The notes beneath the pieces were generated by a model. It had not been told where the DNA came from and ran no database searches. It worked only from the letters and a program-made list of their open reading frames with translations. The position numbers and the translations under genes are program-made. From positions 1 to 64,000 of the forward strand of contig JALSIB010000060.1 in NCBI GenBank assembly GCA_026981855.1: 64,000 bases of DNA, in the 5' to 3' direction. Position 1 is the first letter of the stretch. Each line of letters starts with the position of its first letter. Below, one piece after another: positions 24,015 through 31,900 of the stretch. The stretch comes from Methylothermaceae bacterium. GTDB lineage: Bacteria; Pseudomonadota; Gammaproteobacteria; Methylococcales; Methylothermaceae.

Positions 24015-24482
24015 AAGCGTTGTTGTGTTCGGGTTGTCGATCAGTGTGACTTTTACCATAACAGATTTGTCGCCGTTCCCAAACGGGCGCGCTTGGCAGG
24101 GCAATTGCCCGAACCGGTTTCTCCCCTCTCCCTTTGGGAGAGGGGCTTTTCAAGGCCGTGCAAAATCGGGTTTGAACGGGAAAGCGGCGGTCATACGATT
24201 GTCCTGTCCCGCCTCTTACCACCTTCACTTCTGCGGGGAAGAAAGCCGTTGGTTTCCGGCGACAAGGATAAGTTTTTGAATGACAAGTCAAATGCCGGAT
24301 AAAGGACTGTCCCGCCCTCTCGGCAGTCATCGTGCGGCGACAGGGTGGCGGGTGCCGATCCGCCTTCATTTTTGAAAACCTGATATAAATCAATTGTATA
24401 AATTTGTGGCATGAAATGTGCATTAGTGAAGAGTGCAATGCATTGCATCATTGTGAAACACTTTTCCAAGGAGAAAACAGAA
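24015..24482. other. 468-bp intergenic region containing a MITE-like element
   Basis: No gene is visible. It contains the dispersed element at 24097-24206. The AT-rich segment 24370-24470, just before the EF-hand gene, presumably holds that gene's promoter. The dsbB promoter should lie at the left edge. Confidence 0.6.
24097..24206 (-). repeat. MITE-like dispersed element, copy A (about 110 bp)
   Basis: By eye about 85% identical to copy B (30955-31062) in inverted orientation. The centre is a near-palindrome, CCCCTCTCCC/GGGAGAGGGG. The ends are imperfect inverted repeats (CAGGGCAAT... at 24097; its counterpart ...ATTGTCCTG ending at 24206). No flanking direct repeat is visible, suggesting an older copy. 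No coding capacity. Confidence 0.75.
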
Positions 24483-28694: not shown

Positions 28695-29288
28695 TCATCG
28701 GCCTTCGTATTCCGCCAGATCCCGGGGCGTGTTGATATTGACGAACTGGTTTGCGGCATCGCTGAGGTCGAGGCCGATCCAGCGGTGTCTCCGGGCCCAG
28801 GCATCGATCCTGCGCTTGCCGGAAGCCAGCCATCCGGCCAGGTCGCCCGCCACATGCGTCCGCAGCGCCATCACCACGGGATGAAGGCGTTCGCCGTCGG
28901 AGGCGAGGACGATGTCCATCCGCTGCGCCTCCAGTGGGCCCAGCAGTCTTGCTAGGGTGGCCGTTTCGAGCCGGGGGCAGTCGCACGGCGACACCAGCAG
29001 GTAGGGCGTGGTGGCCGTTTCCAGGCCGCTGAGGATGCCGGCCAGGGGGCCCTGGAAACCGGCGATGGAATCCTGGATCAGTGGCAGCCCGAACCTTTCA
29101 TATTCCTGGAGGGAGCGATTGGCGTTGATGAAAAGATGTCCGCACAGAGGGCGCAGGGCCTCGATGGCATAGCTGATCAGCGGACGGCCGCCGCAAGGGA
29201 TCAGGCCTTTGTCCGTTCCCCCCATCCGCCGCGCCTTGCCACCGGCGAGAACGATGCCCGATACGCGCTCGGGCGGTGGAACCGTCAT
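28695..29288 (-). CDS. mobA: Molybdenum cofactor guanylyltransferase MobA
   Basis: 197 residues. It transfers GMP from GTP to molybdopterin to form the MGD cofactor. [22 protein letters not shown] is the nucleotide-binding loop; [19 protein letters not shown] and [10 protein letters not shown] are typical MobA motifs. The metal-binding Asp lies in SPCDCP. The ATG at 29288 overlaps the nadB stop (ATGA), so the two are one transcript. This implies the organism uses molybdoenzymes. Confidence 0.93.
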
Positions 29289-30910
29289 GGACGTTCCCCG
29301 CCGGCGGGCGATGGATTCATCAGCACGGTGTTTTGAGCCGGCTCGCTGTCGTTTCTGGAAGGATAGTCGAGGGTGTAGTGGAGTCCGCGGCTTTCCTTGC
29401 GCCGCATCGCGCATTGGACGATCAGTTCGGCGACGATGATCAGGTTGCGCAGTTCCAGAAGGTCACTGGTCACCCGGAAATGGCCATAATACTCGGCGAT
29501 CTCCTGCTTCAGCATTTCCACCCGCCGCAAGGCCCGCTGGAGGCGCTTGTCTGTGCGCACGATGCCCACGTAATCCCACATGAAACGCCGGATCTCGTCC
29601 CAGTTGTGGCTGACGACGACTTCCTCGTCGGAGTCGGTGACCTGGGATTCGTCCCAGCGGGGCAATGGCACGGGAGGGGGGAATTCATGCAATCGCCGTT
29701 TCAGGTCCATGGCGGCCTGGCGGGCGAATACCAAGCATTCCAGCAGGGAATTGCTGGCCATCCGGTTGGCGCCGTGGAGACCGGTGCAGGCGGTTTCTCC
29801 CACGGCGTACAGGCCGGGGATGTCCGTCCTTCCCCAGGCATCGGTGAGTACACCGCCGCAGGTGTAATGAGCGGCGGGAACCACGGGAATGGGCTCGCGG
29901 GTCATGTCGATGCCGAAGTCCAGGCAGCGGGCATGAATGGTGGGGAAATGGGCGCGGATGAAATCCGGGCTTTTGTGCGAGATGTCCAGATAGACGCAGT
30001 CCACCCCCAGCCGTTTGATCTCGTGGTCGATGGCGCGGGCGACGATATCTCTGGGGGCCAGTTCCCCCCGCGGGTCGAAACGTTGCATGAAAGGGGTGCC
30101 GTCCGGCAGCAGCAGCCTGGCGCCTTCCCCCCGCAACGCCTCTGAAATCAGGAACGAGCGGGCCTGGGGGTGATACAGGCAGGTGGGATGGAATTGCATG
30201 AATTCCATGTTGGCGATCCGGCAGCCGGCGCGCCAGGCCATGGCGATCCCGTCGCCTGTGGCGGTATCGGGGTTGCTGGTGTAGAGATACACCTTAGCGG
30301 CGCCACCGGTTGCCAGCACCACGCTTTTGGCCCGGAAGGTTTTTACCCGTTGGGCTTTGCGGTCCAGAACGTAAGCCCCCATCACCCGCTGGGGGGTCAT
30401 TTTCAGCTTGCTGGCGGTGATCAGGTCGATGGCGTTGTGATATTCGTACAGATCGATGTTGGGGTGGGTTCTGGCATGGTTCAGGAGGGAAGTTTCGACC
30501 TCCTTTCCAGTGGCGTCGGCGGCATGGACGATCCGGCGGTGGCTGTGTCCGCCTTCCCGGGTCAGATGGAGGTGCCTTTCACCGTCTTCCGATTCCACTT
30601 CGGTGAAGGTGGTGCCCTGGTCGAGCAGCCAGCCGATGCATTCCTTGCCTTGGGCGACCACCAGCCGGACGATCTGTGGATCGCACAGGCCCGCGCCGGC
30701 CTTCAAGGTATCCTGAATATGGGATTCGATGGAATCCTGGGCGTCGAGGACTGCGGAAATCCCGCCCTGGGCGTAGAAGGTGCTGCATTCCTGTAATCGG
30801 GTCTTTGCGACGATCGCCACCCTGGCGCTGTCGGCGATCCTCAGGGCGACCCCCAGGCCGGCGGCCCCGCTGCCGATAATCAGGACATCATAGTCGAATA
30901 TTTCTGACAT
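29285..30910 (-). CDS. nadB: L-aspartate oxidase NadB
   Basis: 541 residues. This FAD enzyme oxidises aspartate to iminoaspartate for de novo NAD synthesis. [15 protein letters not shown] is the dinucleotide-binding fold; [11 protein letters not shown], the [10 protein letters not shown] substrate-binding region, MEFMQFHPT and [11 protein letters not shown] are all conserved. The C-terminal helical region ends in a Ser/Pro tail. It is divergent from rpoE, exactly as in E. coli, but here a MITE-like element lies in between. Confidence 0.97.
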
Positions 30911-30944
30911 CTTTGCTTTATAACAGAATCTTCGGCTTCATTTC

Positions 30945-31072
30945 CACTTGAGACTAGGCCGGTTGCATGACCGCGGCTTTCCCGTTCAAACTCGATTTTG
31001 CAAGACCTTGAAAGCCCCTCTCCCTCTGGGAGAGGGGGAAAGCGGTTCATGCGATTGCCCTGCACTTGAGAC
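30945..31072 (+). mobile_element. MITE-like element copy B with 10-bp flanking direct repeat
   Basis: The direct repeat CACTTGAGAC occurs at 30945-30954 and again at 31063-31072. It precisely brackets a 108-bp element (30955-31062) beginning TAGGCCGG and ending GATTGCCCTG. The element shares about 85% of positions with copy A and has imperfect inverted ends (TGCATGACCGC near the left end; GCGGTTCATGC near the right end). This is the structure expected of a non-autonomous transposon with target-site duplication. Confidence 0.75.
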
Positions 31073-31130: not shown

Positions 31131-31159
31131 TTGAATGGTACCGGGTAAAAAGAGATAAT
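31131..31159 (+). promoter_or_regulatory. Sigma-70 promoter of the rpoE operon
   Basis: TTGAAT (31131-31136), a 17-bp spacer and GATAAT (31154-31159) form a near-consensus housekeeping promoter, 100 bp upstream of rpoE and 59 bp downstream of the MITE-like copy. I did not find a convincing sigma-E autoregulatory promoter. Confidence 0.65.
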
Positions 31160-31258: not shown

Positions 31259-31900
31259 TTGAAAGGAGAAAACCAGTCGGCGGCGGAAGTCGATAGGGCG
31301 TTGGTGCAACGGGTACAGCAGGGGGACAAGAAGGCCTTCGACCTGTTGGTGCTCAAATACCAGCCGAAAATAGTGCAATTGGTCAGCCGCTATATCCGTG
31401 ATCCTTCCGAAGCGTTGGACGTGGCCCAGGAGACTTTCATCAAAGCCTACCGGGCACTGCCCAGGTTCCGTGGTGACAGTGCTTTCTATACCTGGTTGTA
31501 CCGGATTGCCATCAATACGGCCAAGAATCACATTGTGGCACGTTCCAGAAGACCCTCGGATTCTGAAATCGAGGTGGATACCGCGGAACAATTCGAAACC
31601 GCGGTCCGTCTAAGGGATCAGGAGACGCCCGAGGGCATTCTTTTGAGCGAGGAAGTGGCGGAGGCCGTTCGTCATGCCATCGAGGCGTTGCCGGACGAGC
31701 TGCGTACCGCCATTACCTTGCGGGAGTTCGAGGGAATGAGTTACGAGGAGATCGCTCAGGCCATGAATTGTCCCGTCGGTACCGTTCGTTCGCGTATCTT
31801 CAGGGCCCGGGAAGCGATAGACAAGAAATTGAGAACCTTGCACACAGGCATGCGCAAGGGGAAAAAACAAAAGCAAATGGAACCATCGGTGGAAAAATGA
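31259..31900 (+). CDS. rpoE: Envelope-stress sigma factor RpoE (AlgU)
   Basis: 213 residues, an ECF sigma factor. Region 2 holds LVSRYIRDPSEALDVAQETF, then AFYTWLYRIAINTAKNH. Region 4 holds LREFEGMSYEEIAQAM with CPVGTVRSRIFRAREAID. The match to E. coli RpoE is close along its length. The start is most likely TTG at 31259, giving the normal N-terminus; no ATG or GTG fits this frame nearby. It directs transcription of envelope-repair genes when RseA is cleaved. rseA, rseB and mucD follow. Confidence 0.96.
   Translation: MKGENQSAAEVDRALVQRVQQGDKKAFDLLVLKYQPKIVQLVSRYIRDPSEALDVAQETFIKAYRALPRFRGDSAFYTWLYRIAINTAKNHIVARSRRPSDSEIEVDTAEQFETAVRLRDQETPEGILLSEEVAEAVRHAIEALPDELRTAITLREFEGMSYEEIAQAMNCPVGTVRSRIFRAREAIDKKLRTLHTGMRKGKKQKQMEPSVEK

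Follow-up and report, generated by a model that had tools for sequence, protein, structure and literature searches.

The MITE copy and its target-site duplication

The 108-bp element at positions 30955–31062 (+ strand) of the window, by which we mean the whole 64-kb stretch of DNA analysed here, is very probably a MITE copy with ISAs1-type ends that was mobilised in trans by an ISAs1-family DDE transposase into the spacer between nadB and rpoE. A non-autonomous transposon insertion had been claimed for this place in the first-pass annotation, and the claim is upheld by the presence of multiple copies, their shared inverted ends, a 10-bp duplication at most of them, the lack of coding capacity and a nadB-rpoE gap without the element in nine congeners. 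The 10-bp direct repeat CACTTGAGAC, located by sequence match and flank comparison at 30945–30954 and 31063–31072, exactly bounds the 108-bp element as had been described, and these two sites are its only exact occurrences in the 64-kb window. When the element was aligned with 17 other copies, it lay flush between the two duplication copies, which match at 10 of 10 positions. The right terminal inverted repeat (31047–31062, − strand) was recovered by pattern match and alignment as a perfect CAGGGCAATCGCATGA, whereas the left one (30955–30970, + strand; TAGGCCGGTTGCATGA in the alignment of copies) differs from the family CAGGGCAATCGCATGA at five positions and now reads TAGGC, so that the imperfect inverted ends seen earlier are explained by decay of the left end.

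The duplication length was assessed in the 17 copies for which both ends were available, with assumed lengths of 4 to 15 bp. The identity between left and right flanks reached 0.81 at 10 bp and stayed between 0.19 and 0.33 at lengths 4–9 and 11–15. At least seven of the ten flanking bases matched in 14 of the 17 true pairs, compared with a single pair among 272 in the cross-pair control. The repeat of CACTTGAGAC is not a product of chance, and the duplication length is 10 bp only. The duplicated sequence differs between copies and is therefore host DNA rather than part of the element.

The MITE family in the genome of the window

A search of the 2.75-Mb, 60-contig draft assembly for further copies of the 108-bp element, proposed as a check in the first-pass annotation, gave 64 BLAST pieces. 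About 20 are near-full-length elements of roughly 104–128 bp, and the rest are many fragments and solo ends. The copies are non-coding and, at this length, too short for a transposase. In the alignment they start and finish with CAGGGCAATCGCATGA-type inverted repeats, and the CAGGGCAATCGCATGA 16-mer, with up to three mismatches allowed, had 104 matches in the genome against 3 for a reversed control pattern. Most copies are about 86–95% identical to the family consensus (the query being an approximate consensus) and at least two interior subfamilies were observed in the alignment, indicating that the family is not very young.

Two related copies had been named within the window. The one at 24097–24206 (− strand) is a real second MITE copy of 110 bp, inverted with respect to the copy between nadB and rpoE and about 87–90% identical to it, with a flanking duplication that is no longer recognisable (5/10). 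The match at 2551–2577 also proved real, but as a fragment only, namely a 28-bp solo right end (2550–2577, + strand; BLAST and end-pattern match).

Several features of MITEs were observed in the family, which is dispersed and multicopy, carries terminal inverted repeats, generates a duplication of constant length and is short without a transposase gene. With bacterial MITEs in general it has in common the short length, the non-coding and multicopy nature, the inverted ends and the target duplication. Among MITEs the family is new and has ends of the ISAs1 type, but as a mobile element it is of an ordinary kind. No paper on this MITE was found by a few full-text searches of the open-access literature. 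A 21-base core pattern gave four scattered matches to named genome contigs of unrelated taxa, which may be due to chance; records near the genome of the window may be missing from that set. The flanks of one MITE copy (L005) match stretches of two different contigs (C199 and C168) of the genome G008 at 98% and 91% identity. Most of the other flank matches are much more distant (mostly 72–92%), and recent transfer or contamination is possible for this locus.

Probable source of the transposase

The ISAs1 family is characterised by ends of 14–22 bp starting with CAGGG and by a 10-bp duplication (PMC11946415), and the MITE family matches both of these published traits. A search for the 16-mer across the order detected inverted pairs separated by about 1.25 kb in the congener G003 and by 1,228 bp in G066, a member of another genus and another family. 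In both genomes these insertion sequences (ISs) carry a transposase gene of the ISAs1 family (NF033564 with E about 1e-117 to 1e-123; Pfam PF13808 and PF01609). The G003 IS is 1,253–1,262 bp long, its 16-bp ends are identical to the CAGGGCAATCGCATGA ends of the MITE, and its full-length copies mostly show 10-bp duplications with 9–10 of 10 positions matching; the G066 IS has one mismatch to CAGGGCAATCGCATGA at each end and a 10/10 duplication. The MITE and the ISAs1-family ISs therefore have in common the CAGGGCAATCGCATGA ends, with all 16 bp identical in G003, and the 10-bp duplication, but the ISs measure 1.23–1.26 kb and carry a transposase gene, whereas the MITE is a non-coding element of about 107 bp with an unrelated interior.

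The transposase with matching ends that was looked for is accordingly present in a congener, as the ISAs1-family IS of G003, and was not detected in the MITE's own genome. Active MITEs usually have such a partner beside them in the genome, but past mobilisation does not strictly depend on one. In the own 60-contig draft, searches with the ISAs1-associated Pfam domain, with the G003 transposase as query and with the ISAs1 NCBIfam model gave no ISAs1 transposase; the same model search yielded 19 matches in G003. The MITEs therefore look orphaned. Conversely, no significant match to the MITE was obtained in the IS-rich G003. Two DDE_Tnp_1 transposases, the better ones among those of the own genome, were considered as partners and rejected, as their ends (GGCGTTGTTGCATAAA and TTCTACTTTGTCA) differ from those of the MITE; a third DDE_Tnp_1 match falls below the family cut-off. 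These two own-genome IS elements, both of the DDE_Tnp_1 type, are located at L061 (G000:C48) and L062 (G000:C2).

If the MITE had instead been moved by a transposase from a different family whose ends are similar, both the own genome without an ISAs1 transposase and the unrelated interiors of MITE and IS would be accommodated. We give this reading very little probability, as the G003 IS has 16 identical end bases together with the same unusual duplication length of 10 bp, and the ends of the two other DDE_Tnp_1 transposases in the genome are different. The most economical reading appears to be that an ISAs1 transposase, now absent or hidden in an assembly gap, mobilised the MITE in trans. Four points stand against it, namely that no ISAs1 transposase was found in the own draft, that only the ends are common to the MITE and the G003 IS, that the left end of the window copy has decayed, and that divergence of the empty site in the nearest relative, G005, prevents a single CACTTGAGAC from being seen there. 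By this mechanism the MITE ends would have been recognised by an ISAs1-family DDE transposase acting in trans, and the MITE would have moved into the nadB-rpoE spacer, where 10-bp staggered cuts and their repair would have produced the two copies of CACTTGAGAC. The lineage would since have lost its ISAs1 transposase, or a transposase copy may lie in an assembly gap; if the loss is real, the MITE family would consequently now be immobile.

Short elements with the same ends are also found elsewhere in the order, such as a 167-bp element in G007, a 225-bp element in G098 and a 446-bp element in G092, all with exact 16-bp ends like the MITE. The G098 and G092 elements, which belong to another genus, are flanked by 10-bp duplications matching at nine of ten positions. 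All three elements differ from the MITE in length. Same-ended repeats are abundant in the genome of the window and in G007, both of which are without a detected ISAs1 transposase. With the distinction between type I and type II MITEs as used in PMC3542288, the present family falls into type II, since no end-sharing IS was found in its own genome, yet an IS in a congener shares its ends, which points to a type I origin. A likely source of the family can thus be named from a congener IS with identical ends, and the genome offers a small example of MITEs that appear to have outlived their transposase.

Inner hairpin and folding

The element contains an inner perfect hairpin, CCCCTCTCCC-TCT-GGGAGAGGGG, at 31015–31037, the core of which also lies outside the MITE in related genomes. 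In the form CCCCTCTCCC-nnn-GGGAGAGGGG this hairpin occurs independently of the MITE in many genomes of the order, often beside TTGGGGTGAGGG, and in one MITE copy (L021) an additional stretch of 20-odd bases includes CCCTCACCCCCGGCCCCTCTCCC. This wider hairpin repeat may have been captured by the MITE. The hairpin as found at 31015–31037 (CCCCTCTCCCnnnGGGAGAGGGG; L067–L076 elsewhere), often adjoining TTGGGGTGAGGG, is in itself a widespread, MITE-independent intergenic repeat of the order.

The in silico fold of the element is strong on the two strands (z about −4.7 and −4.0), as would be expected of a structured RNA or regulatory hairpin, either a terminator or a small RNA, that is kept for its function and whose repeats did not arise by transposition. 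Such a reading is hardly credible here, since the fold is explained by the long inverted ends and the inner palindrome, the 10-bp duplication has a different sequence at each copy, and nine congeners lack the element at this place. Moreover, no Rfam match was obtained, a T-run of the terminator type is not present, and a conserved position with compensatory changes was not seen at the nadB-rpoE locus. A role as structured RNA or terminator was rejected on the Rfam, T-run and folding checks.

The nadB-rpoE locus and its promoters

The insertion lies between nadB (L-aspartate oxidase, 29285–30910, − strand; NF006567, TIGR00551) and rpoE (sigma-E factor, 31259–31900, + strand, with a probable TTG start; TIGR02939), which is followed downstream by rseA-like and then rseB-like genes (PF03872, PF03888). 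The apparent TTG start of rpoE (31259–31261) occupies the same position in 10 of 10 congeneric genomes. A promoter-like motif of rpoE, TTGAAT-N17-GATAAT, is located undisrupted at 31131–31159 (+ strand) and recurs in 10 of 10 congeneric genomes, with TTGAAY-N17-GATAAT as its general form in the ten genomes; it starts 58 bases past the right repeat, which agrees with the distance to the rpoE promoter reported previously. On the opposite strand, an extended −10-like motif of nadB, TTCTGTTATAAA, is found at 30917–30928 (−), 16 bp from the left duplication and in 10 of 10 congeneric genomes, and in the form TTnTGnTATAAA (TGnTATAAA) it is present in the ten genomes. This motif ends six bases before the ATG (30908–30928), which would suggest that the nadB mRNA is leaderless.

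The MITE is situated between both motifs and disrupts neither, being nearer to the nadB motif (16 bp) than to the rpoE motif (58 bp). Judged from the sequence, the insertion is most likely near-neutral for rpoE, and a regulatory effect on nadB or rpoE is a possibility. An adaptive insertion, which would alter the expression of nadB or rpoE or insulate the divergent promoters, could draw on the closeness of the conserved nadB extended −10 motif (16 bp) and of the rpoE motif (58 bp), and on the unrelated repeats that occupy the same spacer in two of nine congeners. It is nevertheless unlikely, as both promoter-like motifs are intact, the motif-to-motif spacer is freely variable across the genus (26 to 447 bp among congeners), and purifying selection alone would leave insertions between promoters.

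Comparison with relatives

The nadB-rpoE gap is without the MITE in all nine of the congeners compared, and in the nearest relative, G005, it is too diverged for the exact junction or a single CACTTGAGAC to be read. A joined-flank query for 16 other copies gave one clean case of presence and absence, L003 against G005, in which the site aligns cleanly in G005 without the element, while the duplication of L003 itself is unrecognisable.

The spacer length in G003 and G002 derives partly from unrelated dispersed repeats. That unrelated small mobile repeats have landed again and again in this spacer within the genus, and that they alter or insulate both promoters in a selected way, seems distinctly improbable; if insertions between the two promoters are simply tolerated, the spacer repeats are explained without any special function. 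The repeat in the G003 gap (L099; G003:C1:1086575-1086720) is palindromic and dispersed but distinct from the MITE, measures about 108–146 bp and has the form GGCAGGTGGCCTGCTGCG...CGCAGCAGGCCACCTGCC; it is matched about 40 times in G005, about 40 times in G002 and 7 times in the genome of the window. That in the G002 gap (L101) is a dispersed repeat of about 230 bp, 83–86% identical to other G002 loci.
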